This document shows positions 3,916 to 22,099 of a stretch of DNA of 38,375 nucleotides, piece by piece. The notes under the pieces are model-generated. The model searched no databases. It had not been told where the DNA came from and was given only the letters and a program-made list of their open reading frames with translations. The stretch lies in NCBI GenBank assembly GCA_013151775.1, contig JAADHO010000335.1, positions 1 to 38,375 of the forward strand, given 5' to 3'. Origin of the DNA: Deltaproteobacteria bacterium. Lineage in GTDB: Bacteria > Myxococcota_A > Polyangia > Polyangiales > Houyiibacteriaceae. How positions within the stretch are numbered: position 1 is the stretch's first letter; every line of letters starts with the position of its first letter. The position numbers and the translations under genes are program-made.

Positions 3916-3965
3916 TGATATCGACACACCCTGCATCACTACTCACCACCGGAAATGTGGTGCCT

Positions 3966-4466: not shown

Positions 4467-4475
4467 GAACGTTGC

Positions 4476-7313
4476 ATGATTATCAAAGATAACATCACTC
4501 GCCGTAACTTCATCGCGACAACTTCCGTGGCTGCCGCTGGAGCCGCCACTCTCACAGGCTGTCGCGAGCGAGCCATTCGACACATCGTGCCGTGGGTAAA
4601 CCCTCCGGACGATGCTATTCCTGGCATCCCACTCTTCTACAACACGATTTGTCGCGAGTGCACCGCCGGATGCGGCATGAGCGCGCGCACACGTGAAGGA
4701 CGCGTGGTGAAGCTGGAGGGAAACCCCGAGCATCCGATCGGCCGCGGCGCCCTCTGCGTCCGAGGCCAGGCCGCCATCGAGGGCCTCTACCACCCCGAGC
4801 GCCTAGGCGGCCCAATGCTGCGCGCGCAAGACGGATCGGAGCAGAGCAGCGTGACCTGGGACGCGGCCGAGGCCGCCCTGGGTGACGCTCTGAGCCGCGC
4901 CATCGACCACGACGCACCGATCTATGTGCTCACGCGCCCGGAGCCCGGCGCTTTGGGCGGACTCTTCGGCGCCTGGCTGACTGCCCTCGGGCAACAGCCT
5001 GACCAACAAATCAGCTTCGACCCCCTCGAGCCAACTTGGACGCGTGAAGCGGGCCAGCGAACCTTCGCCGCGTCCGATCGGCCGAACTACAGGCTGGGTC
5101 GAGCACGCATGCTGCTGTCGATCGGCGCGGACTTCCTGGAAGACTGGGGCTCGCCGGTAGAGCATGCCCGCGGCTTGGCCGACATGCAGGCTGGCCGCCG
5201 CGAGGGCGAGACGCGCTTCGTCTATGTAGGCCCACGGCTCTCGCTCACCGCTGCCGCCGCAGATCGTTGGCTGTCCGTGCGGCCCGGCTCCGAGATCCAC
5301 CTGGTCCTCGGACTGGCGCGCTACGTGCTCGAGCAAGGTGGGGCTGGGGTGTCGTCGCTGCCTGGGCCTGCCGCGGCCAGCTTGGCGCGGAAGCTCGCTG
5401 GCTACACGCCCCAAGGCACAGCCGAACGAACCGGTCTCGACGCCAGCGACATCACGTCTCTCGGGCGTCAGTTGGTGCGAGCACGGCCCAGCCTAGTCCT
5501 CGGACCGGGGCGTTCCGTCGCCGGCAGCAACGCGGTCGCGCTGGCCTCCGCGGTCCATGTTCTCAACGCACTGACAGGCGCCATCGGCGACACCGTACGA
5601 TGGCCCCAACGCGTCGAAGAGACGCAGCAGGGCGCGGAGAGCGAGTTGACTCACCTGGTCGAGCGCGCGCGACGCGGACGGATCGGTGTTCTCGTGGTCC
5701 ACCACACGGACCCCTTGCGCTTCGGCGCGGCCTTCGATCAGTTCGAGCGCGCCCTGGAACAGGTCGACTTCCTAGCCGTCATCGGCCATCGCCTCGACGG
5801 CCTCGCTCGACGCGCGAACGTCGTGTTGCCCGACCACCACTTCCTAGAGAGTTGGTCTACGCTGGAGACGCGTCCAGGGGTGATGGGCATCCAGCAGCCG
5901 ACCATGACGCCCCTGCTCGAGACCAAGGCGGCCGCCGACGTACTGATCGCCGCCGCCCGATCCATCGAGCGCGCCGACGGACTGCCCTACGGCACCTTCG
6001 CCGAGTCGATCCACGACGAGCATGACCCACAGGATCTACAACGTGGAGGCGTGTTCGAACAGGCGCCCCTACGGGTGGTGTCTCTCACGGACGACCCCCT
6101 GCCAATGCCACTCGAGGACGCGAGCCTCGAGGGCCCGGATGACGGTCTCGCGCTCAGCGTGTTCCCATCTCTTCGCCAGACAGGCGACGGGCGTCCAGCG
6201 GACGACCTTCTGAGCGAGATCCCGGATCCGCTGACGCTGATCTCGTGGAGCGGCTGGGTGGAGCTTCATCCCGCAACGGCCGCGACCCTTGGGCTAGCGA
6301 CACGGGACGTGGTGCGCGTGGACGCCGGGCAACGACAGCTGGAATTGCCGGTCTACGTGCATCCCGGAGTCCGCGAGGGCATCGCGGGCATCCCCGCGCC
6401 CTTCGCCACCGATCTACTCACCAGTGGAGCCCAACCGGCCTTGGGCCTGGTGTCCCGAGTGAGCCTCTCCAAGACCGGCGCCGTCGCGCTGCTTCCTCGC
6501 AGCCAGACCACGGAGAATCAGGCCGGCCGAGAGCTCGCCATGACCACACGAGAGCTGACTGCCAGAGGGCGCCACGTGAGACGCCTGAGCATGTATCCCA
6601 CGCCTGAGCGCGGCGCTCACCGCTGGGGCCTGGTAGTCGACCTCGATCGCTGCAACGGCTGCTCGAGCTGCGTCGCGGCCTGCTACGTGGAGAACAACAG
6701 CGCGATCGTCGGACCCGAGGAGACCGCCAACCGCCGAACCATGAACTGGATGCGCATCGAGCGATTCATGGAGGGCTCGCCCGAACACCCGGATGCACGC
6801 TTCATGCCGGCCATGTGCCAGCAGTGCACGAACGCACCGTGTGAATCGGTCTGTCCTGTCTACGCCACGTACCACACCTCCGACGGCATCAACGGTGAGA
6901 TATATAATCGATGTGTTGGCACTCGCTACTGCGAGAACAATTGCCCGTATCAAGCGCGTCGTTTCAATTGGTATGATCGACCACGTTCGGAGCGCGCACG
7001 GCTTGCACTCAACCCTGATGTTACTGTGCGCGAACGCGGCGTGACCGAGAAGTGCACTTTCTGTATCCAACGCATTCGTGCGGGCAAGGAGCAGGCAAAG
7101 ATTGATGGCAAGCCCATCCTCGACGGCGACATCACGCCGGCATGTGCGCAGACATGCCCAACAGGTGCGCTGGTATTTGGCGACCTACAAGACCCGGCTT
7201 CCCGCGTATCACGTCTGGCCGCCGGAGACCGCGCATATCATCTATTCGAAGAACTCAACACAATTCCCGGTGTCGTCTATCTGGCACGACGGCGAGTGGA
7301 GATCGAGCGATGA
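4476..7313 (+). CDS. actB: ActB-like fused molybdopterin-oxidoreductase-fold / Fe-S subunit of alternative complex III
   Basis: 945 residues. The N-terminus has a Tat-type motif (TRRNF, Arg9-Arg10), a hydrophobic stretch and a lipobox-like LTGC (Cys29). Residues ~50-690 are a molybdopterin-oxidoreductase-like domain and ~705-930 a four-cluster ferredoxin domain (CNGCSSCVAAC; CQQCTNAPCESVCP; CVGTRYCENNCP; CTFC with CAQTC). This fusion is the hallmark of ActB, which in characterised complexes has no molybdenum. Unusually, the N-terminal domain keeps a full Cys59-x2-Cys62-x3-Cys66-x27-Cys94 set able to hold another Fe-S cluster. The stop codon overlaps the start of actC (ATGA). GC drops after about 6890. 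Confidence 0.9.
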   Translation: MIIKDNITRRNFIATTSVAAAGAATLTGCRERAIRHIVPWVNPPDDAIPGIPLFYNTICRECTAGCGMSARTREGRVVKLEGNPEHPIGRGALCVRGQAAIEGLYHPERLGGPMLRAQDGSEQSSVTWDAAEAALGDALSRAIDHDAPIYVLTRPEPGALGGLFGAWLTALGQQPDQQISFDPLEPTWTREAGQRTFAASDRPNYRLGRARMLLSIGADFLEDWGSPVEHARGLADMQAGRREGETRFVYVGPRLSLTAAAADRWLSVRPGSEIHLVLGLARYVLEQGGAGVSSLPGPAAASLARKLAGYTPQGTAERTGLDASDITSLGRQLVRARPSLVLGPGRSVAGSNAVALASAVHVLNALTGAIGDTVRWPQRVEETQQGAESELTHLVERARRGRIGVLVVHHTDPLRFGAAFDQFERALEQVDFLAVIGHRLDGLARRANVVLPDHHFLESWSTLETRPGVMGIQQPTMTPLLETKAAADVLIAAARSIERADGLPYGTFAESIHDEHDPQDLQRGGVFEQAPLRVVSLTDDPLPMPLEDASLEGPDDGLALSVFPSLRQTGDGRPADDLLSEIPDPLTLISWSGWVELHPATAATLGLATRDVVRVDAGQRQLELPVYVHPGVREGIAGIPAPFATDLLTSGAQPALGLVSRVSLSKTGAVALLPRSQTTENQAGRELAMTTRELTARGRHVRRLSMYPTPERGAHRWGLVVDLDRCNGCSSCVAACYVENNSAIVGPEETANRRTMNWMRIERFMEGSPEHPDARFMPAMCQQCTNAPCESVCPVYATYHTSDGINGEIYNRCVGTRYCENNCPYQARRFNWYDRPRSERARLALNPDVTVRERGVTEKCTFCIQRIRAGKEQAKIDGKPILDGDITPACAQTCPTGALVFGDLQDPASRVSRLAAGDRAYHLFEELNTIPGVVYLARRRVEIER

Positions 7314-8668
7314 CCACTGCAACTCTTTCGGATACGATCGGCGCAGATATGGAGGCGACCATAGCGCGAACGACATGGCGCTACTGGCTCGCATTGCTCT
7401 TCGCCGCCGGAATGACCGCACTCGGTATCTGGGCGTGGGTGCAGATCCTACAAGATGGCTTCGGTCTCACGGGACTCAACACCCCTGTCATGTGGGGCTC
7501 ATTCATTACGAACTTCGTATTTTTCATCGGAGTGAGTCACGCAGGAACGCTCGTGTCGGCGATTCTGTATTTCACAAAGTCGCCGATACGCGCGGGTGTA
7601 GGCCGCTCGGCAGAGGCGATGACTGTCATCGCGATTATGACAGCTGGTCTATTTCCCATCATTCACTTGGGGCGTGCCTGGTTGGGTTTTTGGCTGATGC
7701 CCTACCCGAACCAGCGGCAGCTCTGGCCAAACTTTCACTCTCCGCTCATCTGGGACGTATTTGCCATAAGTTCGTACGTTACGATCAGCGCGCTCTTCCT
7801 CTACATGGGCATGCTTCCCGACCTGTCCTCCCTCAGTCGCCGCGTGCGCGGAGTACGCAAATATGTGTACCGCGTATTGTCACTCGGATTCTCTGAATCC
7901 GATGGCGAGTGGGCACTATTCGAGCGCGCATATCCCATCTTTGCACTCGTGGTCATCCCCCTCGCCGTCTCTGTTCACAGCGTCGTCTCATGGGATTTCG
8001 CGATGGCTTTGACACCGGGATGGCACTCGACGATCTTCGCGCCCTACTTCGTCGCTGGAGCGATCTTCTCTGGTGTCGCGATGGCCATCATACTGCTATC
8101 GCTCCTGCGACGCGGATATAAGCTTCAGGCCTATATTCAAGAGAAGCATTTTGACGCGCTAGCGAAGCTGATGCTCTCCATGTCGCTGATCATGACCTTC
8201 GTCTATTGCACGGAGATCTTCATGGCCTTCTATCACGGAGAATCAGTAGAAATAGATCTGTACATATGGCGCATGACAGGCCCTTCTGCACCACTGTTCT
8301 GGAGCGTAATCTTCTGCAACTCCGTTGTTCCTCTGGCATGTTTCTGGCGCAAGATACGGTTCGATTTGCGTGCCTTGATCGCGATCTCTGTGCTGGTGAC
8401 CATCGGCATGTGGTTGGAACGCTATATGATCGTCGTAACTAGCCTCTCACATGGCGCAGATCCAGCGACCTGGGGAAGTTACTTCCCATCGTTCCACGAG
8501 ATCCTCATCACGGTGGGTGCCTGCGGTTGGTTCGCACTGTGGTTCATGGTCTTTGTGAAGTTTTTTCCATGTATTTCTATATCTGAGACAAAGCAAGCGC
8601 AGGTGGCGTTCTCCACCGTGCCTTCTGCTGGTACTGAAGATTCATCTGAGGAGCCGCACGATGCCTGA
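7310..8668 (+). CDS. actC: NrfD/PsrC-like quinone-binding membrane subunit, ActC-like
   Basis: 452 residues from the ATG at 7310, which overlaps the actB stop; an upstream in-frame extension lies inside actB and is rejected. About ten hydrophobic helices are visible, with motifs of the NrfD/PsrC family (FFIGVSHAGTLVSAILYF, HLGRAWLGFWLMPYPNQR, WPNFHSPLIWD, SVHSVVSWDFAM, FAPYFVAGAIFSG). ActC is the integral membrane subunit that binds quinol next to the ActB clusters. The last ~25 residues are polar. Its end overlaps actD by 8 bp. The gene has markedly lower GC and AT-richer codons than actD-actF. Confidence 0.9.
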   Translation: MTTATLSDTIGADMEATIARTTWRYWLALLFAAGMTALGIWAWVQILQDGFGLTGLNTPVMWGSFITNFVFFIGVSHAGTLVSAILYFTKSPIRAGVGRSAEAMTVIAIMTAGLFPIIHLGRAWLGFWLMPYPNQRQLWPNFHSPLIWDVFAISSYVTISALFLYMGMLPDLSSLSRRVRGVRKYVYRVLSLGFSESDGEWALFERAYPIFALVVIPLAVSVHSVVSWDFAMALTPGWHSTIFAPYFVAGAIFSGVAMAIILLSLLRRGYKLQAYIQEKHFDALAKLMLSMSLIMTFVYCTEIFMAFYHGESVEIDLYIWRMTGPSAPLFWSVIFCNSVVPLACFWRKIRFDLRALIAISVLVTIGMWLERYMIVVTSLSHGADPATWGSYFPSFHEILITVGACGWFALWFMVFVKFFPCISISETKQAQVAFSTVPSAGTEDSSEEPHDA

Positions 8669-9164
8669 GCCTTCCATGATTCTATTCGACGATCCACATC
8701 ATGCGGAGGACGTGGTCCGGCGACTGCGCGAGTGCGGGGTGGATGATGTTCATGTGACGAGCCCCGCCGCATATCCAGTGACGGAAGAGACGAAGCCGCC
8801 CTTCGGATGGCGCCTCTTCGGGTTGTTGGCGCTCACAGGCGGACTGACAGGGCTCGCCACGGCTATTGCGCTCGTGGTCCACGGCTCCGAGACCGTGCCG
8901 TTGATCGTGGGCGGCAAGGCCGTGTTGGCATGGCCCGCGTTTTCGGTCGTGATGTTCGAGCTCACCATGCTTGGCGCCGGTGTCGCGAATTTCCTCGGCG
9001 TCATCGTGCTGTCCGCCGTCGCTCGACGAGGCCTTCCGAAGCGCGCTCGCATGGCGGCCGCCGAGGGGCATATCGCGGTGCTGATCCCTGCGGGAGAGCA
9101 CTCGGCCGAGCAGCGTGAGGAGATCCGGCGGGTGCTCGAGGACGAGCATGGGGTGGCCGCGTGA
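8661..9164 (+). CDS. actD: ActD-like membrane subunit (DUF3341)
   Basis: 167 residues. The N-terminal ~50 residues form a small alpha/beta domain (LFDDPHHAEDVVRRLRECGV; MTSPAAYPV-like segment), followed by two transmembrane helices at ~52-75 and ~88-118 and a soluble C-terminal domain ending near VLEDEHGVAA. This is the layout of DUF3341/ActD, a structural subunit of alternative complex III without cofactors. It overlaps actC by 8 bp and its TGA overlaps the GTG start of actE, indicating translational coupling. Confidence 0.88.
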   Translation: MPEPSMILFDDPHHAEDVVRRLRECGVDDVHVTSPAAYPVTEETKPPFGWRLFGLLALTGGLTGLATAIALVVHGSETVPLIVGGKAVLAWPAFSVVMFELTMLGAGVANFLGVIVLSAVARRGLPKRARMAAAEGHIAVLIPAGEHSAEQREEIRRVLEDEHGVAA

Positions 9165-9790
9165 CCGGGCGTAGTTGGCTGGTGGTCGCTGCGTGTCTGG
9201 TCCTGACTGGTGCGTGCGACGCCTCTTGGCCTGCGAGTATGGCTGATCAGCCTTCGGTGGGTCCTCTCGACGCTCCCCGTCCGCCACCTTTCGGTTCGGT
9301 AGCTGTCGGAGTGGACGTGGTGGAGACACGTGAAGACGTGGAGGACATGCTGAGTCCCGTAGCGAACGATGGACACTCGGCCGAACGGGGCGCTGCGCTC
9401 TTCGGGATTCACTGCGTGGCATGTCACGGCAGCGACGGACGCGGCGGCGGCAAGGTCTCGGAAAAGATGCCTCCCGCTCCTGACCTGCGACACATCTCGA
9501 TCTGCCGTCGAACGGACGGCTTCATCTATGGCACGATCACGGCGGGTGGCCGGGCCATGCCGTCCCTGCGTGAGGGGCTCAGCACGCGAGATCGCTGGGA
9601 TCTCGTCTCCTTCGTGCGCGAGCTGCAGAGCGCTGGTTGTGAGGGCAGCGCCGCGGGAATGGGGAGTGCCACGGAGCCCGATGGCGCTGGCACAGACACG
9701 GGCGAGGCTGATGGCACCGGGCCAGACACGGCGGGGTCCGAAGCCGGCACGGTGGCGCCTGACGCCGCGACTACTGGAGATGCACAATGA
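9161..9790 (+). CDS. actE: Monoheme cytochrome c lipoprotein, ActE-like
   Basis: 209 residues, GTG start overlapping the actD stop (GTGA). A signal peptide with lipoprotein-like LTGAC (Cys19) is followed by one class I cytochrome c domain: heme motif CVACH near residue 86, GSDGRGGG, and a distal Met in RAMPSLREGLS. ActE in characterised alternative complex III is also a monoheme lipid-anchored cytochrome. The final ~45 residues are an acidic Gly/Thr/Asp/Ala linker, an extension I do not know from ActE and likely disordered. The TGA overlaps the actF start (ATGA). Confidence 0.88.
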   Translation: MTGRSWLVVAACLVLTGACDASWPASMADQPSVGPLDAPRPPPFGSVAVGVDVVETREDVEDMLSPVANDGHSAERGAALFGIHCVACHGSDGRGGGKVSEKMPPAPDLRHISICRRTDGFIYGTITAGGRAMPSLREGLSTRDRWDLVSFVRELQSAGCEGSAAGMGSATEPDGAGTDTGEADGTGPDTAGSEAGTVAPDAATTGDAQ

Positions 9791-10875
9791 AGGCTTGGCT
9801 CGTTCAGACCGAGGGCGTGCTCGGACGTCCCATCACCCTCAGCTGCCTCTTCGCGGTCGGCGCCGGCATCGCGGCGTTTGGCTGGGGAGCTGCCAGCGCT
9901 CGAGCACCTGGGGTGTTCGGGGCCTTGATCGCCAGCTGGCTCTTCTTCGCGGGGACCGCGATGGGTGCGGTCGCCTTTCGCGCGTTGCTCGGCGGCGTGT
10001 TGCGAGCGCGCTGGGCGAGGGAACTCGAACCGACCGCTTCGACACTCATGGCCTTCGTGCCGGTGGCCTCCTTGCTCTTGGCCGTCCCCTTGATCGGCCT
10101 GTGGATCTGGGCGCCTTGGACAGCGCATGCACCGCCTGCGAGAGCGTTCTGGCTGAACGCCCCGTTCTTCTACATCCGGGAGGTGCTCGGCACAGCGGCC
10201 CTCTTCGGAATGGCGTACTACAGCCATCGCTCTCGAGGCCGTGGCGAAGGCCGGTCCAACTCACCCATGAGCACGAGCTTCGCTGTGGGCTTCTGCCTGG
10301 TGTACGCCGTGGTGCTTTCGATCTGGTCCTTCGACTTCATCCTGGCAGCGGACACCGAGTGGGTCAGCTCCTTGATCGGACCGCACCTCTTCGTAGGCGC
10401 GTTCTCCTCTGCCGTTGCGGTCATCACCCTGTTGGCGGTCGCCCAAGGTCGCACATCGGTGTTTCAGCGAGACGCCCTCGCGAAGCTCATGTTCGCGTTG
10501 TCGGTCGTCTGGCTCTATTTCTTTTGGTCCCAGTACTTGCCCATGTGGTACGGGAACCTACCCGATGAGATCAGTTTTCTGCTAGCCCGCAGCACTGCGC
10601 CATGGAGCGAGATCTTCTTCTTCGTTCTCGCGACGGTCTTTGCGCTTCCCTTCTTCCTCTTGCTCTATCCACCGACGCGGAGTTCTTCACGTGTCCTCAT
10701 CTGGGTTGCCTGCCTGGTACTCCTTGGGACATTTGCCGAGCGCTTCTTGCTCGTCGTTCCGTCCTTACACAGCGCGGGGACTCCGGCGATCGACGCTCGA
10801 GAGCTCGTGGTCGCCATAGGCGTACTAGGCGCCTTCGTGCTGACCGTGGGTCGCTCGCAAAGAGAAGTCGTTTGA
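9787..10875 (+). CDS. actF: ActF-like integral membrane subunit
   Basis: 362 residues with about ten hydrophobic segments and no signal peptide. The pattern fits ActF, a distant NrfD-like relative of ActC (RALLGGVLRARW, WLNAPFFYIREVLGTAALFGMAYYS, IWSFDFILAADTEWVSSLIGPHLFVGAF, FWSQYLPMWYGNLPDE). FWSQYLPMWYGNLPxE is a characteristic ActF stretch. Position immediately after actE with a 4-bp overlap completes the canonical actABCDEF order. Canonical clusters often continue into a small actG and oxidase genes; here a cupredoxin gene and a Rieske/cytochrome b module follow instead. Confidence 0.88.
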   Translation: MKAWLVQTEGVLGRPITLSCLFAVGAGIAAFGWGAASARAPGVFGALIASWLFFAGTAMGAVAFRALLGGVLRARWARELEPTASTLMAFVPVASLLLAVPLIGLWIWAPWTAHAPPARAFWLNAPFFYIREVLGTAALFGMAYYSHRSRGRGEGRSNSPMSTSFAVGFCLVYAVVLSIWSFDFILAADTEWVSSLIGPHLFVGAFSSAVAVITLLAVAQGRTSVFQRDALAKLMFALSVVWLYFFWSQYLPMWYGNLPDEISFLLARSTAPWSEIFFFVLATVFALPFFLLLYPPTRSSSRVLIWVACLVLLGTFAERFLLVVPSLHSAGTPAIDARELVVAIGVLGAFVLTVGRSQREVV

Positions 10876-10930: not shown

Positions 10931-11611
10931 ATGGGCGACGCTCGGCGAGTTCGTTGGCTAGCATTCCGCACTCCGGAGGCGACGCGCCGTCCGAGCTACA
11001 GCACGCTTGGCGCGCTACTCGTGTGGGGTGGGTGCTTGGTCGCTGCGCTCAGCGCAGGCAGTCACGGTGGGGCGCAGGCCGGCGGTACGCTCGATGGAGA
11101 CCTGCGCGTCCGGGCCCACGGTCGACTCGAACACGCGGTGGTCTACCTCGAGAGCGTACCGCCCTCTCCCTGTCGCCCAGGGCAGACGGCCGTGCTCGAT
11201 CAGCGAGGCATGAAGTTCGTGCCACCGGTACTTGCGATTGCGCGCGGGACCACCGTGTCCTTCACGAATCACGACATCGTTTCGCACAACGTGTTCAGTC
11301 CAGACGGGGAGGGCTATGAGCTCGGCACGTGGACACGCGGAACCGTGAAGCACCGCCGCTTCACTCGCTTGGGTGTGTATCGCCAACTGTGCCGCCTTCA
11401 CCCAGAGATGACCGCAGATATCGTCGTGCTACCGAGCCCATATTTCGCGGTCACTGGCCCCGATGGTCACTTTCAGATCCTCGGCGTTCCCGCCGGAACG
11501 TACAGGCTCGAGACCTGGGCGCGTGGCTACGCACCCGTGCGACGCCCGATCCACATGGCCGGGGCACAAGTCCAACACATCGCCCTCACCCTCGACCGGG
11601 AACGCCGCTGA
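10931..11611 (+). CDS. Second cupredoxin with C-terminal regulatory-like beta domain
   Basis: 226 residues, paralogue of the gene at 3319. Type 1 copper ligands are His119 (VSHNVFS), Cys154, His157 and Met160 (CRLHPEM), and the C-terminal ~60 residues repeat the beta-domain pattern (DGHFQILGVPAGTYRLETW). The N-terminus has a long charged lead (about 20 residues) before the hydrophobic signal core (LGALLVWGGCLVAAL), so the start is uncertain; no good ribosome-binding site precedes 10931. It lies 55 bp after actF and 57 bp before the flavoprotein gene, at the junction of the ACIII block and the Rieske/cytochrome b block, consistent with a carrier between the two complexes (inference). Confidence 0.83.
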   Translation: MGDARRVRWLAFRTPEATRRPSYSTLGALLVWGGCLVAALSAGSHGGAQAGGTLDGDLRVRAHGRLEHAVVYLESVPPSPCRPGQTAVLDQRGMKFVPPVLAIARGTTVSFTNHDIVSHNVFSPDGEGYELGTWTRGTVKHRRFTRLGVYRQLCRLHPEMTADIVVLPSPYFAVTGPDGHFQILGVPAGTYRLETWARGYAPVRRPIHMAGAQVQHIALTLDRERR

Positions 11612-11668
11612 CGTGCCCTCGAGCGATGCACGCGGCGCGGCGCTCCGACGAGTTCGGTCACACGGCCG

Positions 11669-13522
11669 ATGAGAAACACGGCAACCTGGTGGAGAGGGAA
11701 ATCCCTGGCGCAGGCCGAACATCTGCGCTCGGGCGTCCCCTGTCGAGCGGCGTGCCCGGTGGATACGAACGCCGGGGCCTATGTCGGGTTGACCGCACAC
11801 GGACGCTATGAAGAGGCCTACGCGCTGTTGCGCCGGAGAAACCCCTTCGCGTCGGTCTGTGGTCGCGTATGCGCGGCCCCGTGCGAGACCGTCTGCCGCC
11901 GCGCCGTGGTCGACGCTCCGATCAAGATTCGCGCGATCAAGCGCTTCGTGAACCAGCGGGTGGGCATCGAGAGCGGCCGCTCCTTCGAGCGCATCTCGGA
12001 GATCGTCGAGCGCCCGCGGCCCCGCGCCACCGATGCGGGCTCGGTCGCCATCGTCGGAGCCGGCCCCGCGGGCCTCGCCTGTGCGCACGACCTGGCCTTG
12101 ATGGGTCACGAGGTGACCGTGTTCGACGCCGCGCCCGTCGCCGGCGGGATGATGCGACTCGGGATCCCCGAACACCGCTTGCCACGGGCTGTCCTGCAGG
12201 CCGAGATCGAGTTCATCGAATTCCTCGGCGTGGAGATCCGACTTGGCGCCGAGATCGGACGCAACGTGCTCTTCGAGCAGCTCGCTCAGGACTACGGCGC
12301 GGTGTTCGTCGCGGTGGGCTGCCGCAAGGACGCGCAGCTCGGGATCCCCGGCGCAGAGCTCGACGGAGTGCTGACGGCGGTGAATTTCCTGGCGCATATC
12401 AACATCGGGATCCCCATGGAGGTCGGGGAGCGTGTGGTGGTGATCGGCGCAGGCAACGTGGCGTACGACGTGGCGCGCACAGCACAGCGCTTCGGCGCCG
12501 TCGCCCCGCTCGAACGCGAGCGCCACCTGCTCGCCCTCGAGGCGGCGTTCGTCGCCGCCCGTGTACTCGGCCGAAAGGTGACCATCGTGACGCTGGAGTC
12601 GCGCGCCGAAATGCCAGCCGACCCTAGCCAGATCGAGGAGGGCATTCGTGAGGGCATCCTGCTCGCCAACCGCCGCGCGCCGAAGGCAATCCTATCGGAT
12701 CGAGGTCACGTTCGCGGCCTGCAGACACTCACCGTCCGGCGTCTCTTCGACGCCCAGCATCGATTCGCGCCGGAGCTCGTGGAGGGAAGTGAAGAAGAAT
12801 TCCCGTGTGACACGGTCATCACCGCCATCGGCCAGATCGCGGACCTCTCATTCCTCGGCCCAGACCATGGTCTCGCGGTCACGCCCGAGAGCACCATCCG
12901 CGTCGACTCACAGACCTTGGCTACGAGTCGCACCGGAGTGTTCGCTGGCGGCGACGTGGCCTTCGGACCCCGAATCGTCATCGAGGCCGTCGCCGACGGA
13001 CGACGCGCCGCACTGTCCATCGACACGCTGCTCACCGGCCGCGCCGACGAGCCCTCTGCGACTTGTTACCGAACCTTTTCTACCTTCGGCTACGAACACC
13101 CCTTCGCGTTGGGTGACTACGAGAAAGTCCCTCCGCGACGCGTGCCCTTGATCCCGATCGAGAACCGCACTCTCCGAGCCGAAGTGGAGTCGGACCTCGA
13201 CGAAGCGGACGCACGCGCGGAGGGCAGCAGGTGTCTGCACTGCTGGGTCGAGCCCGTGTTCCATGTGGGTCAGCCCAGTGGCAGCGAGTGCATCACCTGT
13301 GGTGGCTGCGCCGACGTTTGCCCACAAGACTGCCTGAGTCTCGTCTCCCGCCCGAGCAGCGACGGCAGCGGCACACCCGCGGTGGTGGTGCTCCTAGACG
13401 ACTCCACCTGCATCCGCTGCGGCTTGTGCGCACGCCGCTGCCCAACCGCGGTGATCACGATGCGGGCTTCCTATGAGCAGGGTGAGGTGGATCTAGTTAG
13501 AATGGCCGACCAAGTCTTTTGA
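11669..13522 (+). CDS. GltD-like FAD/NAD(P)-dependent oxidoreductase with C-terminal 2[4Fe-4S] domain
   Basis: 617 residues, predicted soluble and cytoplasmic (no signal, no membrane helix). Order: N-terminal Fe-S domain as in GltD/dihydropyrimidine dehydrogenase (Cys25, Cys29, Cys64, Cys68, Cys72, Cys76; the first two Cys of the usual eight are absent); FAD dinucleotide fold ([14 protein letters not shown], ~residue 127); second GxGN motif for NAD(P) ([17 protein letters not shown]) followed by an unusual ~25-residue insertion and LESR where GltD has YRRS; FAD-contacting [12 protein letters not shown]; then [12 protein letters not shown] and [12 protein letters not shown], two [4Fe-4S] sites. 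The gene ends 10 bp before the Rieske gene. It may connect the Rieske/cytochrome b complex to NAD(P)H; not a glutamate synthase because no large subunit gene is nearby. Confidence 0.85.
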
Positions 13523-13532
13523 GGAGTCTCCT

Positions 13533-14021
13533 ATGGCGCTGATTGACGATCTCGATGTGCCCATGACCGAAGCCGAGCTCGAGCGGCGCCGGTTTCTGGG
13601 CTTGCTAGGCTCCGGCGCCTTGGGACTCGCGGGCATCGGGACCATGGTCGCCGGCGTGGGTTACCTCGAGCCGAACGCACCCTACGAGCAAGCGACCCGC
13701 TTCGTCGTCGGCCGCCCCGAGGCGATCGTTCCCGGTGGGGTGCTGACCTTGAGGGAACAACGCGTCTACGTCGTACGGGGACAAGCTGGCGTCTATGCGC
13801 TGAGCTCCGTTTGCACACACCTCGGCTGCGTCACGCGGCACGGACTCGGTCAGTCTGAAATCGTGTGCCCCTGCCATGGCAGCGCCTTCGACATGGAAGG
13901 TCGGGTCCTCAGCGGTCCCGCACGCAAGCGACTTCCGCGTCTCGAGCTCACGCTCGAACGAGGCGAAATCGTCGTTCACACAACGTCCCAAGTCGACGAT
14001 GACACTCTGCTCGAGGTCTGA
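13533..14021 (+). CDS. Rieske [2Fe-2S] protein of a cytochrome b complex
   Basis: 162 residues. The N-terminus has a Tat-like ERRRFLG followed by one hydrophobic segment ([23 protein letters not shown]), an uncleaved signal-anchor as in bc-type Rieske proteins. The cluster motifs are Cys94-T-His96-L-G-Cys99 and Cys112-P-Cys114-His115-G-S: Cys94/His96/Cys112/His115 ligate the cluster and Cys99-Cys114 form the disulfide that marks high-potential Rieske proteins. GAGGAG lies 6 nt before the ATG and overlaps the stop of the flavoprotein gene. The protein takes electrons from quinol at the Qo site of the cytochrome b encoded next. Confidence 0.92.
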
Positions 14022-14023
14022 CG

Positions 14024-14842
14024 TTGCGCAAGATAGCCACCGCTCTGACACGCAGCCGGGTATGGCGCTCGGTATTTCGCCATGGGTTTCCAGATTCCAA
14101 TCGGAACCGCTCGCTAGCTATTTTCTCCAGCTTTTTTCTGCATTTCCATCCGGTAAAAGTTCGGGTTCGAGCGATAGCATTCACACGCACATTCTATCTC
14201 GGCGGACTCGCTCTGGCATGCTTTTTCATCCTGACGGTTACCGGAACATTTCTCATGTTCTACTACCACCCTATCGTACCGAGCGCGTACAATGACATGA
14301 AGGATCTTCAATTTGTCGTGTCCTACGGAATGTTTTTACGTAATCTGCACCGGTGGACATCGCGTACAATGATCGCCCTCGTGTTCGTGCATATGGCGTG
14401 GACATTCATGCGTGGCGCATACAGGCACCCACGTGAATTCAACTGGACAATTGGAGTCGGCCTTCTTGTAATAACAGTGCTACTATCATATACAGGCACT
14501 CTTCTTCCGTGGGATCAGCTGTCGTACTGGGCGGTCGCTGTTGGCACCAACATTGTTGGAGCCATCCCGATTATTGGGGCTAAGGTAAAACTCCTACTGC
14601 TCGGAGGTCATGAGATAAACGACAACGCTCTCCTACGTTTCTATGTTCTTCACTGCGTGGTGCTACCTTTGACTCTTGCCTTTGGTGTCGGACTGCACCT
14701 GTGGCGTGTTCGCAAGGACGGCGGAATCCATCTGCCCGAGCTGCCCCCAAGACGCGATGACGTAGGTGACGAGAACTACGCCTCGACGCGCGCCGATGCG
14801 GGTTCGCCAGAATCTTCCGATGCCCCGCATGAAAACGCATGA
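14024..14842 (+). CDS. petB: Cytochrome b6-type subunit
   Basis: 272 residues with a TTG start 2 bp after the Rieske stop. Four core helices carry the heme ligands: His109 and His123 in helix B (LHRW...FVH) and His210 and His225 in helix D. The helix D ligands are separated by 14 residues, as in b6-type proteins, against 13 in mitochondrial-type bc1. [11 protein letters not shown]-like [16 protein letters not shown] and [16 protein letters not shown] match the b6 Qo loop. The Cys that binds heme cn in b6f (YCLGG) is Tyr58 here (FYLGG), so a covalent third heme is unlikely. A ~45-residue basic N-terminus and a polar tail are extra. GC is the lowest of the operon (about 45% in places). Confidence 0.9.
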
Positions 14843-15582
14843 GCGATGCCATGAGCGAACCCACGCCAGAATCTGCGCCGGAGCGAGGGGAAGAAGAGTC
14901 TCTCGGCAGCGTCGGCGCTGCACGAGTGGTAGTCGAAGAGCATGTGTCAGACTGCAGGACATCTGACTTCGTAGACGAGCCGATGCTGATGACGTTTCCG
15001 CACTTGTTGGTGCGAGAGTGCGTCGCGTTTCTTGGCCTGTCGATATTCTTAGTGGTGATGTCACTGTGTTTCGACGCACCACTCGAATCTATCGCCGATC
15101 CGACACGAACGCCAAACCCTGCAAAGGCACCTTGGTACTTTCTTGGGATGCAGGAACTCCTTCAGTATTACCCGCCAATCGTAGCGGGCGTTCTGTTTCC
15201 AGCATTGCTGATCATCGCGCTCGCCATCATCCCGTACTTCCGGGTGAACATCGAGCGGCCACCTCTTTGGAAGTCTGCACCTTGGACTCAGGTCGCCTCG
15301 CTCTGGGGCGTGGTTGCAGGACTCAGCGGCGTTTTCTACTTTACTGGTTCTGTCCCAATTTGGTCTCTCATGGTCCCGTTGTGGGCGGTGGGCCTAGCTA
15401 TGACCGCGGGCGCTCTACCTTGGCGCCGCTCGAGGCTTGGGATCTGGTTGCAAACGCGAAGCCTGGCCTTCTGGATCTTCGCGTGGTTTCTCTTGGCCGC
15501 CACGACGCTGACTGTGATTGGGCTCTGGTTCCGAGGTCCTGGCTGGCGCTTCACACTTCCCTGGTACGATGGATTCTACTGA
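14839..15582 (+). CDS. petD: Cytochrome b subunit IV-type protein
   Basis: 247 residues, overlapping the cytochrome b6-type gene by 4 bp (ATGA). After a polar ~50-residue N-terminus there are five hydrophobic segments (~59-80, 113-133, 150-170, 174-193, 205-226), more than the three of plastid subunit IV. The [17 protein letters not shown] stretch is the Qo motif; the usual PEWY reads APWY (residues 97-100), so the proton-accepting Glu is missing at that place. Together with the preceding gene it makes a split cytochrome b. The C-terminus overlaps the start of the octaheme cytochrome gene by 14 bp. Confidence 0.88.
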
Positions 15583-17551
15583 GAAAGATCTGCCGGGCCG
15601 CGCAGAGCGTGCGGCCAGCGTCAGCATGCTGCGCTTGCTGGTGGTGTTCGCGCTACTCTCGGTCGTCCTGTTCGGCGTGCTGGCGGTTGGCCCCACACGT
15701 CAGTTCTCGGAGTGGCGCACGGTTCAGCAGCGCTACAACCGGCTGGCGAACAGGGCAGGTCTAGCGCCCATCGATGTGCGAATCCGGCAGATCGTGAACC
15801 CCTCCCTCGGCGTGGTGGACCGCTGCGGAAGCTGCCACCTCGGTGCATCGGGGGTAGCGCCGATGGCAAACGATCCATTGTTCCGCGCCCATCCACCCAT
15901 GCCGCACGAGCCTGGGGAGATGGGCTGCACCATCTGCCATGGGGGACAGGGTCGCGCGACCACGGCTCAGGCAGCACATGGCGACGTGCCCCATTGGGAT
16001 GAGCCGCTGATTCCGCGCCGATACATCGAAGCGGGGTGTGGCGTGTGCCATTCCGGGGTGCGCACACCCAACAGCGCCCTGGTCGATCGCGGCCGTGTGC
16101 TCTTCGAGGAGAGCGGCTGTGGAGCCTGCCATCCGCTGAACGCGACTGCTGGAGGGACAGAGCCAGACGTCGACCTCTCGCATGTGAGCTTGAGCGGCTT
16201 CGATCCGCATTGGGCCGATCGACACGAGGAGACTGCGGCGACCTCTGAGGATGCTCGCTGGTTGACGAGCACGCTGCCGACCACCGCCACGCAGCGCCAC
16301 GCCCTCGACGCCTACCTGAATTCCCTGATCGGCGCGCCGCGTCTGATGGCGGGCAAGTTGCTCGCCCATGGACTCGGCTGCTTGGGTTGCCACCGCATCA
16401 ACGGGTTTGGGGGGGACGACGGCCCCGATCTCTCGAACATCGCGGGGCGGCCGGCGACGGATCTCGACTTTTCGGGGGTGGACGGAGAGCACTCGCTGGC
16501 CGGCTGGCTTCGCGCGCTGCTGAAGGATCCTGACCACGTACAGGCCGACAGCAGGATGCCCAACCTCAATCTCGGCGACGGGCAGATCGAGTTGCTCATC
16601 ACCTACTTGCTCTCGCTGCGTACACGAGAGTTGCCCGCGAGCTATTGGCCGCACGACCGGTCACGCGTGGCGGGGCTCGGGACGCGAGAGTTTTCGGTCG
16701 AAGGAGAGCCCCTCTTCGATACGTTTTGCAGGGGATGTCATGGCGCCCGCGGCGAGGGCCGAGTGCTCGGCACGAGTCACGGGCTGATCGTGCCCGCGAT
16801 CGGTGGGGCGACGTTCCTGGCTTTCGCAGACGACGCGTTTCTACGACGTACAGTGACGGAAGGCCGGCCTCAGCATCGCATGCCGGCCTGGGGCACCTTC
16901 GAGGGCGGCCTGACGAAGAACGAGATCCGCTCCATCGTCGGCTATCTCCGCAGCCTCGAGCCGCAGCCACCTAGCCTGGGCGAGGTCATGGAGAGCGAGG
17001 TCGACTCGACCCTTGGGCGAACTGTCTACGGCGACTCATGCGCGCCATGTCACGGCGGGCGAGGCGAGGGCACGATGATCGGACCGCCGCTGGCGGCGCG
17101 CGACAACCCAGTCAGCGGACGCGCAGAGGACGTGTACTCCACACTCGTCCAGGGCATCGAGGGCACGGCCATGGGCTCCTTTCGGAGTCTAGACGCGCGC
17201 ACGATGCGTGCGGTGATCAGCGCGATCGGCGAGCTCGCCCCGGTCGACGTGAGCCGAGCGGATTGGAGCGCCACTGCGGGAGATGAGGAGCGCGGCCGCC
17301 GGCTCTTCGCGCGAGCGTGCAAGCGCTGTCACGGCGCGCAGGCGTCGGATTCGCGGGGCAGGGCAATGGCCATCGAGAGCCCTCGCTTCACCGCCGCAGC
17401 CTCCGAGGGATTCCTGAGCGCCTGCATCGTCCGGCGTCACGACTCCGTGCGGCCGGCGCTCCATCCGAGCGCCGAGCAGGTGGCCGATCTCGTGGCGTAT
17501 CTGCACGGCCGCGCTGCCGACGCCACCTCCAGCGCGAGCCAGACGCTCTAG
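15569..17551 (+). CDS. Membrane-anchored octaheme cytochrome c
   Basis: 660 residues from the ATG at 15569, 14 bp inside the subunit IV gene; an in-frame start at 15518 would add 17 residues but lies deeper in that gene. One N-terminal membrane helix (MLRLLVVFALLSVVLFGVL) anchors a periplasmic part with eight CxxCH motifs: CGSCH, CTICH, CGVCH, CGACH, CLGCH, CRGCH, CAPCH, CKRCH. The first three are close together with intervening His, resembling a multiheme c7/NapC-like segment; the last five look like successive class I cytochrome c domains (for example CRGCHGARGEG with Met in HRMPAWG). It is the last gene of the operon and the probable electron-accepting subunit of the Rieske/cytochrome b complex, replacing cytochrome c1 or f. 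Confidence 0.88.
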   Translation: MDSTEKDLPGRAERAASVSMLRLLVVFALLSVVLFGVLAVGPTRQFSEWRTVQQRYNRLANRAGLAPIDVRIRQIVNPSLGVVDRCGSCHLGASGVAPMANDPLFRAHPPMPHEPGEMGCTICHGGQGRATTAQAAHGDVPHWDEPLIPRRYIEAGCGVCHSGVRTPNSALVDRGRVLFEESGCGACHPLNATAGGTEPDVDLSHVSLSGFDPHWADRHEETAATSEDARWLTSTLPTTATQRHALDAYLNSLIGAPRLMAGKLLAHGLGCLGCHRINGFGGDDGPDLSNIAGRPATDLDFSGVDGEHSLAGWLRALLKDPDHVQADSRMPNLNLGDGQIELLITYLLSLRTRELPASYWPHDRSRVAGLGTREFSVEGEPLFDTFCRGCHGARGEGRVLGTSHGLIVPAIGGATFLAFADDAFLRRTVTEGRPQHRMPAWGTFEGGLTKNEIRSIVGYLRSLEPQPPSLGEVMESEVDSTLGRTVYGDSCAPCHGGRGEGTMIGPPLAARDNPVSGRAEDVYSTLVQGIEGTAMGSFRSLDARTMRAVISAIGELAPVDVSRADWSATAGDEERGRRLFARACKRCHGAQASDSRGRAMAIESPRFTAAASEGFLSACIVRRHDSVRPALHPSAEQVADLVAYLHGRAADATSSASQTL

Positions 17552-17577: not shown

Positions 17578-18951
17578 TCAGGACTCGATGTCAGCGGCGG
17601 AGACCCCGTGCTGGCGAAGTTTCTCCCACAGGTTTTTGCGCGAAATGCCCAAGAGCTCCGCAGCCTGGGCGCGTTTCCCCTTGGCCGCTTCGAGCGTGCG
17701 CAGCAGATACTCACGCTCGAACTCCTTCATCGCGACCGAGAGCGGACGCACGCTCTGCTCGCTCGTCGGTTCCAAGGTGCCGCCGCAGATGTCGGGGGGA
17801 AGATCCTGCAGCCGCAGCTCTCGCCCGCGACAGAAGACCAGAGCGTGCTCGATGGCGTGCATGAATTCCCGGACGTTCCCTGGGAAGTCATGCCGTTCGA
17901 GGGCCGCGCGCACCGCGGGGGAGACCGAGGGCGGATCACCGGGACCGTTGTAGAAGCGCCGAAGAAAGTGCTCCGCGAGCATGGGAATGTCTCCGCGCCT
18001 CTCCCGCAGCGGCGGAATCCGGATCTCGAGCACGTTGATGCGGTAGTAGAGATCCTCCCGAAAGCGTCCCTCCGCGACCTCGGTCTTCAGGTTGCGGTTG
18101 GTCGTGGAGATCAGGCGCACATCGACCTGTGTAGACGTGTTTGATCCGATGGGCTCGAAGGTCCCCTCTTGAAGAACACGCAGCAGCTTCGCTTGGGCAG
18201 GCAGTGGCAGCTCGCCGACTTCGTCGAAGAGCAGCGTCCCTCCGTCGGCGAGCTTGAACCTGCCGTCTCGCCTGCCGAGGGCGCCGGTGAAGGCCCCCCG
18301 CTCGTGACCGAAGAGCTCGGCCTCGATCAGCGCCTCCGGAAACGCGGCGCAGTTCACCGCCACGAACGCCTTGTCTCGCCGTGGGCTCCTGTCATGGATC
18401 GCCCTGGCGACCAGCTCCTTGCCCGTACCGCTCTCGGCCGAGATCAACACGGAGGCGGAGCTGTCAGCGATGGCGTCGATGCGCTCTTGCAGTCTCAACA
18501 TCGCTGGAGTGTGTCCCACCAGCAGCGCGCCCGACCCCTTGGAGGCGAGGGCCGCCAGCGCGGCGTCGAGGTCGCGGCGCAGATCGCGGCGCTCGGTGAT
18601 GCGCTCCACGGCCATCACGATCTCCTGAACCTCGAAGGGCTTGGTGATGTAGTCGTAGGCACCCTCCTTGATGACAGCGACGGCGTCCGAGAAGGAGCCG
18701 AAGCCCGTGATCAACACGACCTCCGTCTTCGGAGTCCGCTCTCGGATTCGCCGGAACACGCTCAGGCCGTCGAGGGATGGCAGCCGAATGTCGCAGATGA
18801 CGAGATCCAGCACGCGGCTCTCCGCCACCGCTAGCGCCTCGGCCCCGTCGCTGACCGCGATCACCTTGTGCCCACGCGCCCGCAGCGCGTCGCTCACCGC
18901 CATGCGGATCAGTGGTTCATCGTCCGCCAACAGAATACTAAGCATGGGCAT
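17578..18951 (-). CDS. NtrC-family sigma-54-dependent response regulator
   Basis: 457 residues. Receiver domain at ~4-118 with phospho-acceptor Asp54 (VICDIRLPS), Thr81 (LITGFGS) and Lys104 (TKPF). AAA+ domain at ~140-375 with Walker A ESGTGKE (173-179), the sigma-54 contact loop GAFTGA (219-224) and Walker [10 protein letters not shown] Fis-type helix-turn-helix lies at ~415-450 ([23 protein letters not shown]). It is convergent with the electron-transfer operon (26 bp gap) and overlaps the kinase gene upstream by 14 bp, so the two form a cognate pair. Sigma-54 promoters with shared upstream repeats precede both flanking transcription units, making these its likely targets. Confidence 0.93.
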
Positions 18952-20245
18952 GACCTCCAGCGGCCGGCAGCCACAGGGTCACGGTGGTGCCACGTCCGAG
19001 TTCGCTCTCGATGGAGAGTTCTCCTCCGAACGAGTGCATCACGCCATAGCTGATGGCGAGCCCGAGGCCCGTGCCTTCGCCGTGGCGCTTCGTCGTGAAG
19101 AAGGGGTCACGCACCTTCGCCAGGTTCTCCTTCGAGATTCCGGGACCGCGATCTGCGATCGCGATGCCCCACATGGAAGCGCGGCGAGTCGCAGACACGG
19201 ACACCTCGGATCCCCCCGGACTGAAGTAGATGGCGTTCATCACAACGTTGATCAGGGCTTTCTTGAGCTGGGTCGTCTCTGCACGGATTTGCACATCGCC
19301 GACCTCGAGTGACGACACCACCTTGACGTCGGCTTCTTCGCAGAATGGCACCACGCTGCGCAAGCACGCCGACACGAGTTCGGCCGCGTCGATGTCCGTG
19401 GGCACAGCTGACCTGCGACGAGAGTAGTCCCGCAAGCCCTCGAGGATACCCGTCATTCGAGCGCAGGCCTCTAGGATGGAGGAGAGGTATTTTTCTCGTC
19501 GCTCCTCCGGCATGTGTTCTTCACGCAGCGCTCTGGCGCACTGCATGATCCCGGAGAGGGGATTGTTGATCTCGTGCGCGATGCCGGCGGCGAGCACCCC
19601 GGTCGCAGCGTGCTTCTCGAGTTCGATCAGATCGGTCTGCTCTTCGACCAGCCTCTGGTGCGTCAGGGCCATCTCATCGTGGGCGGCCCGCAGGCGACGG
19701 CCGGGACGGGTGGCGAGGTCGAAGAGGACGCCCACCACCGGCCCGTGCAAGACGACAGCAGCGACCACGAAGACCGCAGACCACGGCTGCACCGGCAGGG
19801 GTCCGAGCAGCGCCAAGCTAGCGATCAATCCGAGATTGACCAGCGCCGTCAGGAGCCCCCCGCGCAGTCCGAAATAGGAGGCCACCAGAGCGCTCCACAG
19901 ATACAATGCGGGCACGAAGGGGCTCGAGATTCCGCCCGATACGTACACGAGCGCCGTCACGAACACGATGTCCGAGAGGGAGGCGACGAAGTAGAACGTG
20001 CGCTTCTCCTCGGTGCGCAGGATCCTCCCCCCGGCCAAGTACAAGATGACGCAATAGGGAGCGAAGACCCCGAAGGCCTCCAACACGGCGTGGCGCGTTC
20101 CGCCCGGCTCGAGCGTCAACAGCGCCCACGCAGCGCCTCCGGCGATAGCCATCGTGCGCACCAGCAGGTAGATCAAATCGCGTACGTCGAAGCCGTGGGG
20201 TAGGTCATCGCTCGCGCCTGAACGCTGAATCTCCGAAGGCTCCAT
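18938..20245 (-). CDS. Membrane histidine kinase, partner of the NtrC-type regulator
   Basis: 435 residues. About six hydrophobic segments between ~22 and 178 form the sensor region, with only short loops outside the membrane, so the signal is probably sensed in the membrane (for example quinone state or membrane energisation; inference). A coiled stretch (~182-212) leads to the HisKA domain with His224 (AAGIAHEINNPLSG) and an HATPase domain with VVMNAIYFSP (N box), DRGPGIS (G1), FFTTK and GTGLGLA (G2). No PAS or heme-binding domain is seen. It overlaps the regulator gene by 14 bp. The 447-bp region before its start is shared with the cytochrome-porin gene. Confidence 0.9.
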   Translation of the reverse strand: MEPSEIQRSGASDDLPHGFDVRDLIYLLVRTMAIAGGAAWALLTLEPGGTRHAVLEAFGVFAPYCVILYLAGGRILRTEEKRTFYFVASLSDIVFVTALVYVSGGISSPFVPALYLWSALVASYFGLRGGLLTALVNLGLIASLALLGPLPVQPWSAVFVVAAVVLHGPVVGVLFDLATRPGRRLRAAHDEMALTHQRLVEEQTDLIELEKHAATGVLAAGIAHEINNPLSGIMQCARALREEHMPEERREKYLSSILEACARMTGILEGLRDYSRRRSAVPTDIDAAELVSACLRSVVPFCEEADVKVVSSLEVGDVQIRAETTQLKKALINVVMNAIYFSPGGSEVSVSATRRASMWGIAIADRGPGISKENLAKVRDPFFTTKRHGEGTGLGLAISYGVMHSFGGELSIESELGRGTTVTLWLPAAGGHAHA

Positions 20246-20431: not shown

Positions 20432-20503
20432 GGTTACAGGTCCGTAACGGAGTCTCGCCCTCGTAGCACCGACCCGTAACGCGCTCGGTTACAGGTTCGG
20501 AGC
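20432..20503 (+). promoter_or_regulatory. Predicted activator-binding region (UAS) matching that at 3067-3132
   Basis: GTTACAGGTCCGTAAC (20433-20448) has the same GTTAC-N6-GTAAC layout as 3068-3083. AGCACCGACCCGTAAC (20465-20480) is identical at 14 of 16 bases to 3101-3116 and begins 32 bp after the first site (33 bp in the other promoter). A third copy of the GTTACAGGTYCG half lies at 20488-20503. The block is about 100-125 bp upstream of sigma-54 elements and lies between the kinase gene and the cytochrome-porin gene. The rest of 20246-20692 shows no gene. Confidence 0.65.
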
Positions 20504-20603: not shown

Positions 20604-20619
20604 TGGCGCGCCAGTTGCA
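20604..20619 (+). promoter_or_regulatory. Sigma-54 (-24/-12) promoter of the cytochrome-porin gene
   Basis: TGGCGCG-CCAG-TTGCA matches the sigma-54 consensus with only A to G inside the -24 element. It is about 74 nt upstream of the ATG at 20693, and the predicted activator sites lie 100 bp or more further upstream, as expected for NtrC-type activation by looping. Confidence 0.68.
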
Positions 20620-20692: not shown

Positions 20693-22099
20693 ATGCCCAG
20701 AGTCAACCGCGACCTACGTCTGTTCAGTGCCCTGCTCGCGTGTTCTGCGGGAGTCATCATCGTGCTCTCCACGTCTCCCGCCTACGCGATTCCAGCGTTC
20801 GCGCGCCAGTATGGAACGAGCTGCCAGACTTGCCACACGGTGTTTCCGGCACTCACTCCCTTCGGAGAGGCGTTTCGTCGCAACGGATTCAGGTTTCCTG
20901 GAATCAACAGCGAGGCGCTAGATCAAGAGCCCACATCCATGGGCAGCCCCGCGTTTCGATCGCTCTTCCCCCACTCGGTCTGGCCCTCGTCCGTGCCGAG
21001 GGGAGTGCCGCTCTCGGTCGGCATCAGCGGGTCGGCGGTCGCACATCCCGACGCGAACTCGGGTGGAGCGGCTGCTGACGATGGCGCGGCCTTCACCTTG
21101 GACGGCTTGGCAGCGGAGGCGAGCATCTGGGGCGGCGGTCCCATCGATGATCAGATCACGTTTTTCGTCGAGCTCTCCGCCTCGGAGGAGGGTTTGGAAT
21201 TCGAACACGGCGAGCTGCACTTCGGTGATATCGCCGGACCTCAGCACTGGCTCAACCTCGCCGTCGGCCGGCGCGCGCCGACCCTGTCCAGCTTCGGAAT
21301 GCACAGCTCCTATTTGGTAGACATGCGCTTCACCTCCGCTTCGCTGACGGCGCTCTACGGCGCCGACGAAGGTGCCCTCGACGTGATGGGCGGAAGCACG
21401 GGGATCGAGCTCAACGGCGTGATCGGCGGCTTCTTCGACTACGCCTTCGGCATTCACTCGGGGACGAGCATCGACGTTCGCAACACCCAAGACGCCTACG
21501 CCCAGATCGGCTTCAAGCTCGGAGGCATGCGACTCGACGGTGAGCCAGGAGGCGCGCTCCCGGACGCCACCCATCCCTGGGGAGAGACTGCGCTGACCGT
21601 CGACTTCTTCGCGCAGCGCGCCCAGTCCCAAGCCAGCAACCCCGACGCCACGACCGCAGACCTGACCCTCGACGTTCGAACGCTGGCCTTCGGTGGCGGC
21701 ATTCGCGCGCAGTGGGGCTCCTTGCTGCTCGACTCGGGCGCGCTCCTGCAGATCGACGACCACGCCCAAGCCGACAACCGGGGCGCGCGCATGTTCGTGG
21801 AGTGGAACGAGCTGTCCTACGTGGCGCTCCCGTGGCTCGTCCCGGCGGTGCGCTTCGAGTACATCTCGCTCATGCCCGAGGGCGGACAGACCGTCAGCGA
21901 CTACCGCATCACACCCGGTGTCGCGGCGTTGATCCGGGCGAACGTGAAGGTGGTCCTCGAGGGCTGGTTCGAAGGCGCGAGCGGCGCGCCGCCCGCCGGC
22001 TGGGCGCCCGCCATGGGGCTCGCCGACCCGACGTCCCCCATGACCAACGTCGGCATCGAGAACGAGGGCATCGCCCTGAACCTCGACTACGCTTTCTGA
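20693..22099 (+). CDS. Cyc2-like outer-membrane monoheme cytochrome-porin
   Basis: 468 residues from the second of two adjacent ATGs; AGGAGG at 20681-20686 is 6 nt from 20693 but only 3 nt from 20690. A signal peptide ends at about Ala32 (SPAYA). The mature N-terminus IPAFARQYGTSCQTCH places one CxxCH heme at residues 44-48, followed by FPALTPFGEAFRRNGF. P-FARQ...CxxCH...P-L-FG resembles the start of Cyc2, a heme-porin fusion known for outer-membrane Fe(II) oxidation. The remaining ~400 residues have alternating beta-strand character and end in LDYAF, a C-terminal Phe typical of beta-barrels. It has its own sigma-54 promoter and the operator shared with the operon. Substrate is unknown; distant relatives exist in organisms not known to oxidise iron. 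Confidence 0.78.
   Translation: MPRVNRDLRLFSALLACSAGVIIVLSTSPAYAIPAFARQYGTSCQTCHTVFPALTPFGEAFRRNGFRFPGINSEALDQEPTSMGSPAFRSLFPHSVWPSSVPRGVPLSVGISGSAVAHPDANSGGAAADDGAAFTLDGLAAEASIWGGGPIDDQITFFVELSASEEGLEFEHGELHFGDIAGPQHWLNLAVGRRAPTLSSFGMHSSYLVDMRFTSASLTALYGADEGALDVMGGSTGIELNGVIGGFFDYAFGIHSGTSIDVRNTQDAYAQIGFKLGGMRLDGEPGGALPDATHPWGETALTVDFFAQRAQSQASNPDATTADLTLDVRTLAFGGGIRAQWGSLLLDSGALLQIDDHAQADNRGARMFVEWNELSYVALPWLVPAVRFEYISLMPEGGQTVSDYRITPGVAALIRANVKVVLEGWFEGASGAPPAGWAPAMGLADPTSPMTNVGIENEGIALNLDYAF

Follow-up and report, generated by a model that had tools for sequence, protein, structure and literature searches.

A Cyc2-like haem-porin gene linked to cupredoxin, alternative complex III and Rieske/cytochrome b genes, with shared regulatory sites, in a Myxococcota genome

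Cyc2 is used as a marker for iron oxidation, and most Cyc2-like proteins are uncharacterised. Proteins of the Cyc2 family (Keffer et al. 2021, PMC8406198; McAllister et al. 2020, PMC7029218) are defined by AXPXFAR[Q/K][T/Y] before and PXL after a CXXCH haem-binding motif, a porin part and a length of at least 365 aa (PMC8406198). For one of them, Cyc2PV-1, the same paper names Porin_O_P as the porin family and OprO/OprP as the structural match; the midpoint potential of Cyc2PV-1 is about +208 mV (PMC8406198). In Acidithiobacillus ferrooxidans (rus/petI), Cyc2, the blue copper protein rusticyanin and a bc1 complex form a branch point with uphill and downhill electron flow (PMC10654088), and the cyc2 operon is under RegB/RegA control, a RegB-type kinase controlling the Fe(II) genes (PMC5506826). 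Candidatus Tenderia electrophaga, an electroautotroph that uses the CBB cycle, combines a Cyc2 homologue with alternative complex III (ACIII) in a proposed reverse electron flow (PMC5371394). In anammox bacteria, bc complexes carrying an NAD(P) oxidoreductase are proposed to make NAD(P)H; those of Kuenenia stuttgartiensis (Kustd1480-1485, Kuste4569-4574) comprise a Rieske protein, a b6-like cytochrome b, subunit IV, a hexa- or octahaem cytochrome c and the Fe-S NAD(P) oxidoreductase (PMC12954380). None of the three, Cyc2, ACIII or the anammox-type complex, is new by itself; the literature that we searched, mostly without subscription papers, contained no account of all of them together with cupredoxins and a common regulon.

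We analysed a stretch of 38,375 nt (the window), positions 1 to 38,375 of the forward strand of contig JAADHO010000335.1 from Deltaproteobacteria bacterium (GCA_013151775.1), in which all three occur together (Table 1). The genome holds 24 matches to MYXO-CTERM, compared with none in 14 control genomes, supporting a host in the Myxococcota.

Table 1. Genes and putative regulatory sites of the locus, in window coordinates
Feature	Position	Strand	Evidence and remarks
Palindrome GTTACCGCTCGGTAAC, ahead of the cupredoxin-ACIII-bc string	3068..3083		One of two exact genome copies
Sigma-54-type -24/-12 promoter-like site TGGCACGACGCTTGC	3157..3171	+	10/10 consensus; 147 bp before cupredoxin 1
Cupredoxin 1, C-terminal carboxypeptidase-regulatory-like part	3319..3915	+	Pfam Copper-bind above cut-off; type-1 copper ligands H...C-SLH-PEM
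ActA-like pentahaem cytochrome c	3915..4466	+	5 CxxCH
ActB (molybdopterin-type + Fe-S fusion)	4476..7313	+	Best PDB matches are ACIII subunit B (6lod, 6f0k, 8k9e, 6btm)
ActC (NrfD-type membrane subunit)	7310..8668	+	DsrP/NrfD-type match; operon position
ActD	8661..9164	+	Pfam PF11821, E 3e-22, above cut-off
ActE (monohaem c)	9161..9790	+	
ActF (second NrfD-type subunit)	9787..10875	+	
Cupredoxin 2, precedes bc-complex genes	10931..11611	+	
NAD(P) oxidoreductase, GltD/NfnB-type FAD protein, two C-terminal 4Fe-4S motifs	11669..13522	+	
Rieske protein	13533..14021	+	Pfam Rieske; CTHLGC...CPCH
Cytochrome b, b6-type short form	14024..14842	+	Pfam Cytochrome_B; best PDB matches are cytochrome b6
Subunit IV	14839..15582	+	Pfam Cytochrom_B_C, just above cut-off
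Octahaem cytochrome c of bc complex	15614..17551	+	8 CxxCH
NtrC-type sigma-54 response regulator	17578..18951	-	GAFTGA
Membrane histidine kinase	18938..20245	-	GGISSPF stretch resembling the RegB motif
Palindrome GTTACAGGTCCGTAAC, ahead of porin; putative activator (UAS) site for the NtrC-type regulator	20433..20448		One of two exact genome copies
Sigma-54-type -24/-12 promoter-like site TGGCGCGCCAGTTGC	20604..20618	+	9/10 consensus; 74 bp before porin gene; P 0.009 vs first-order shuffles
Cyc2-like fused monohaem cytochrome-porin	20693..22099	+	Motif and CxxCH read directly; 33-member alignment; Porin_O_P profile match 95%

The haem-porin gene starts with ATG, spans exactly positions 20693-22099 (+) and encodes 468 aa. 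A signal peptide with an AxA site between SPAYA and IPAF, read by eye, precedes the mature N-terminus IPAFARQYGTSCQTCHTVFPALTPFG, in which the motif FARQY-GTS-CQTCH-TVF-PAL-TPFG holds the only CxxCH of the protein. The C-terminus, ...IALNLDYAF, has alternating hydrophobic residues and ends in phenylalanine. A sequence-only reading had reported this frame with its signal peptide, CxxCH motif and terminal phenylalanine and had called the product a Cyc2-like cytochrome-porin; the sequence bears out the first, and the published motif and length definition (PMC8406198) the second. AIPAFARQY-GTS-CQTCH matches the pattern upstream of the haem site, PAL follows four residues downstream of it, and a single haem motif, signal peptide and sufficient length complete the likeness. 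Across an alignment of 33 homologues the N-terminal motif varies little or not at all: A32, P34, F36, C44, C47, H48, P52, L54 and G58 are identical in every one (33/33). Pfam and NCBIfam searches returned no family covering the haem-porin, PDB searches with the sequence and its profile returned no relevant match, and viral contigs scanned for further homologues contained none.

The body of the protein, described from sequence alone as rich in beta structure, matches Porin_O_P in profile-profile comparison over 260 columns (95%, E 3.5e-8); with the porin profile reversed the value is 0.3%, and none of ten unrelated families exceeds 6%. This match joins the diverse alignment of 33 haem-porin homologues to a Porin_O_P alignment built from 12 proteins, and comes from that alignment only; an alignment of the close subfamily, too shallow for the purpose, gave 2%. 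OprO and OprP are porins of the Porin_O_P type. Amphipathicity analysis counts about 16 peaks at one cut-off, weakly (about 2 sd) above shuffled sequences, and an AlphaFold model of the single sequence was uninformative (mean pLDDT 32). The profile comparison supports, short of proof, a beta-barrel related to Porin_O_P. Its probable place is the outer membrane, and the haem would sit in the mouth of the barrel that faces the periplasm.

Within the family, the window protein differs from described Cyc2 proteins in having Y rather than T after FARQ and E59 in place of R/K. In our tree, FARQT-type sequences (n = 9) form a clade of their own with support 1.0, which takes in plasmid-borne genes of Caballeronia (annotated 'cytochrome C') and Methylocystis ('hypothetical protein'). 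The window protein lies outside it, which rules out membership of the FARQT Cyc2 clade, and falls within a clade of 38 sequences, most of them FAR(K/Q/R)Y proteins (support 0.91); a single clade uniting all FARxY proteins has too little support (0.23) to be accepted. FARxY proteins have a distinct invariant residue, Y40, and a nearly invariant E59, and H204 is invariant in 31 of 31 Myxococcota members, where it may serve as haem ligand or metal site. We know of no FARxY protein demonstrated to oxidise Fe(II). Because the haem-porin lies outside the classical FARQT clade, Fe(II) oxidation, raised as a possibility in the sequence-only reading, cannot be carried over to it by homology. One homologue (L142, 8869-10401) has the motif AIPSWARKYNTSCYMCH, in which W replaces the F of FAR.

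A haem-porin match is present in 38 of 379 genomes of the Myxococcota and in 113 of 396 genomes of a second phylum, that of an Ignavibacteriales genome, with up to four detected per genome. The remark in the sequence-only reading that Myxococcota are a group not known for electron uptake or Fe(II) oxidation needs qualifying: Cyc2 is not absent from them, given these matches and a 2025 tree that already includes Cyc2 from 'Deltaproteobacteria (now Myxococcota)' (PMC12442345). This very wide distribution, with the position apart from the FARQT clade and the distinct residues Y40, E59 and H204, would fit a FARxY subfamily devoted to another reductant or role, for example Mn(II), Cu(I) or a soluble mediator as donor, or metal sensing or detoxification in which the same chain would carry the electrons away. 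We consider such a role unlikely: both the overall architecture and the carriers and complexes to which the genes are linked agree with electron transfer of the Cyc2 type. Should FARxY proteins turn out not to oxidise iron, calls of iron oxidation that rely on the marker and include them would have to be revised in the genomes with a match.

Upstream of the haem-porin gene lies a string of genes in the same direction (3319-17551, +), followed by the regulator and kinase genes on the opposite strand (17578-20245, -). The string contains a multihaem ActA and ActB to ActF in order, as in known ACIII, and the best matches of ActB are to that complex; it differs from known ACIII in the cupredoxin gene in front and in regulatory sites shared with the haem-porin. 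The 'bc-type complex' of the sequence-only reading is real and can be described more exactly as a b6-type Rieske/cytochrome b complex with subunit IV, an octahaem cytochrome c and an NAD(P) oxidoreductase gene. All components of the anammox-type complex (Rieske protein, short cytochrome b, subunit IV, hexa- or octahaem c, NAD(P) oxidoreductase) occur together here, and the set recurs in two further loci (L039, L088); every full-length homologue of the octahaem protein has exactly eight CxxCH motifs. The likeness to the Kuenenia complexes is one of gene set, not of sequence, and the window complex differs in its position beside cupredoxin, ACIII and haem-porin genes and in having no hydroxylamine-oxidoreductase-like subunit. 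Compared with A. ferrooxidans, which shares the haem-porin, a blue copper protein and a bc-type complex, the window has ACIII and the b6-type complex with octahaem c and NAD(P) oxidoreductase, its copper protein, which carries a carboxypeptidase-regulatory-like tail, belongs to another type, and its cluster has no oxidase and is under putative NtrC/sigma-54 control with a unique palindrome. The kinase scores 95 bits against the ActS/PrrB/RegB model (cut-off 350), and its GGISSPF deviates at one position from the RegB quinone motif GGXXNPF; we rejected its membership of RegB.

A 16-bp palindrome, GTTACNGNNCNGTAAC, has exactly two copies in the 6.05-Mb genome (3068-3083 and 20433-20448), one ahead of each half of the locus. 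Each is positioned upstream of a sigma-54-like site, and the gene for the NtrC-type regulator (GAFTGA) lies between them. Exact copies are expected by chance about 0.2 times genome-wide and 2.6e-5 times in the two intergenic stretches, and a reversed-pattern control found 0 copies in the genome. As the pattern was drawn from the two window sites, the window count is not an independent test; the independent tests are its absence elsewhere in the genome and its reappearance in a related genome (G269), whose only two exact copies both lie in porin-kinase intergenic regions of its two loci. Sigma-54-like sites with at most two mismatches are no more frequent across the window than expected by chance; the weight of the two sites comes from their position and from similar sites ahead of porin or ACIII genes in relatives. 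We infer that the palindrome is bound by the NtrC-type regulator of the locus.

The arrangement is conserved in relatives. In G269 (L033), porin, cupredoxin and ActA-F genes run in the same direction with no other assigned genes in between, and in G357 (L044) porin, cupredoxin, ActA-F and NAD(P) oxidoreductase genes are contiguous in one direction. In G330 (L039) the order is kinase, regulator, cupredoxin, porin, NAD(P) oxidoreductase, Rieske, b, subunit IV and octahaem c, and in the second phylum (L088) it is the same with porin before cupredoxin. A cupredoxin gene is adjacent in 39 of 60 FARxY loci and in 0 of 15 others (Fisher P 2e-6, indicative only, as the loci are related by descent). 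Within the stretches read for the tree set, Rieske/b genes accompany 15 of 31 Myxococcota FARxY genes and 8 of 29 from the Ignavibacteriales phylum; these conservation counts are lower limits because of contig ends, and the loci were picked by score rather than at random.

Porin genes are common and some homologues have no listed electron-transport neighbours, as would be expected if the haem-porin had a function unrelated to the respiratory genes nearby. Gene order kept across families and two phyla, with a palindrome restricted to two sites in the genome, makes a coincidental neighbourhood very improbable, and we reject it. The same evidence bears out the link to ACIII and a bc-type complex proposed from sequence, and linkage and co-regulation of the haem-porin with the ACIII and Rieske/b genes are well supported: the locus is a real, conserved and dedicated module. 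The parallel drawn earlier with Zetaproteobacteria, in which Cyc2 was said to co-occur with ACIII, is overstated, as few of them have ACIII and its expression is low (PMC7029218).

The genome that holds the window also encodes a second Cyc2-like protein (C274; L046, 8506-18203) with 37% identity, whose gene adjoins a cupredoxin gene, two NtrC-type regulators and kinases and has a 9/10 sigma-54-like site in front. Five FARQT-type genes of the Ignavibacteriales phylum (L098, L099, L101, L102, L130) lie directly beside a gene for an ActE-type monohaem c.

For the redox partners, direction and substrate of the module, we infer from Cyc2 and the Acidithiobacillus branch-point model (PMC10654088) a dedicated trans-envelope route for extracellular electron uptake into cupredoxins, ACIII and the Rieske/b complex, a proposal about evenly balanced between right and wrong. 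An extracellular donor, most plausibly Fe(II) in solution, would reduce the haem-porin, which would hand the electrons on to the periplasmic cupredoxins. From there a downhill branch would lead to a haem-copper oxidase and an uphill branch through ACIII and the Rieske/b complex to the quinone pool, where NAD(P)H would be formed by the attached NAD(P) oxidoreductase. Both halves would be turned on by the membrane kinase and the NtrC-type regulator, which would act by way of the shared palindrome on the sigma-54 promoters.

The main rival reverses the current: quinol would feed ACIII and the Rieske/b complex, then cupredoxins and haem-porin, and finally extracellular Fe(III) or Mn(IV), with the low-potential bc branch making NAD(P)H. 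Every component could work in this sense, which counts against uptake, and ACIII and bc complexes are normally quinol oxidisers; a dedicated, presumably conditional, regulator would suit export as well. Against it stand the haem-copper oxidases of the genome and the driving force: copper proteins that follow a bc complex in the chain have high potentials, which leaves little toward Fe(III) at neutral pH. The bifurcation scheme for complexes with an NAD(P) oxidoreductase starts from quinol (PMC12954380), in line with export, but the characterised Cyc2 proteins oxidise Fe(II) (PMC8406198). We regard export as doubtful.

The genome contains three haem-copper oxidase genes, and RuBisCO was not found in it, pointing to an aerobe that does not use the CBB cycle. 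It differs in this from Candidatus Tenderia electrophaga, and also in the physical linkage of the genes and their common regulatory sites. Our best guess is electron uptake, from Fe(II) or another donor, by a host that would be a mixotroph rather than a CBB autotroph. We counted against uptake the lack of RuBisCO, the separate FARQT clade, and the wide distribution in a second phylum, with many hosts without known iron oxidation. A broader version, to which we give only tentative credence, is a cross-phylum uptake system in which FARxY haem-porins would feed copper proteins, a reversed ACIII and a bifurcating Rieske/b complex that forms NAD(P)H, all under one dedicated NtrC/sigma-54 switch, as a lithotrophic supplement for otherwise heterotrophic Myxococcota. 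The locus gives the Cyc2 marker named partners, conserved gene strings and restricted regulatory sites, which make its function testable. It also brings the NAD(P)H-type Rieske/b complex, hitherto a topic of work on anammox bacteria, into what may be an extracellular electron pathway, a setting in which the supply of reducing power is the known bottleneck.

Three further features were observed in the window. At its left end, the product of 18-1568 (+) contains a putative copper-binding motif of the MopE type (PF11617), and near the contig end 36454-37503 (-) encodes a fragment of an RHS-repeat protein. A DUF4276 and AAA_21 ATPase gene pair (33482-35247, -) matches the candidate anti-phage system HEC-01 very strongly in PADLOC (E 6e-77 and 1e-210).
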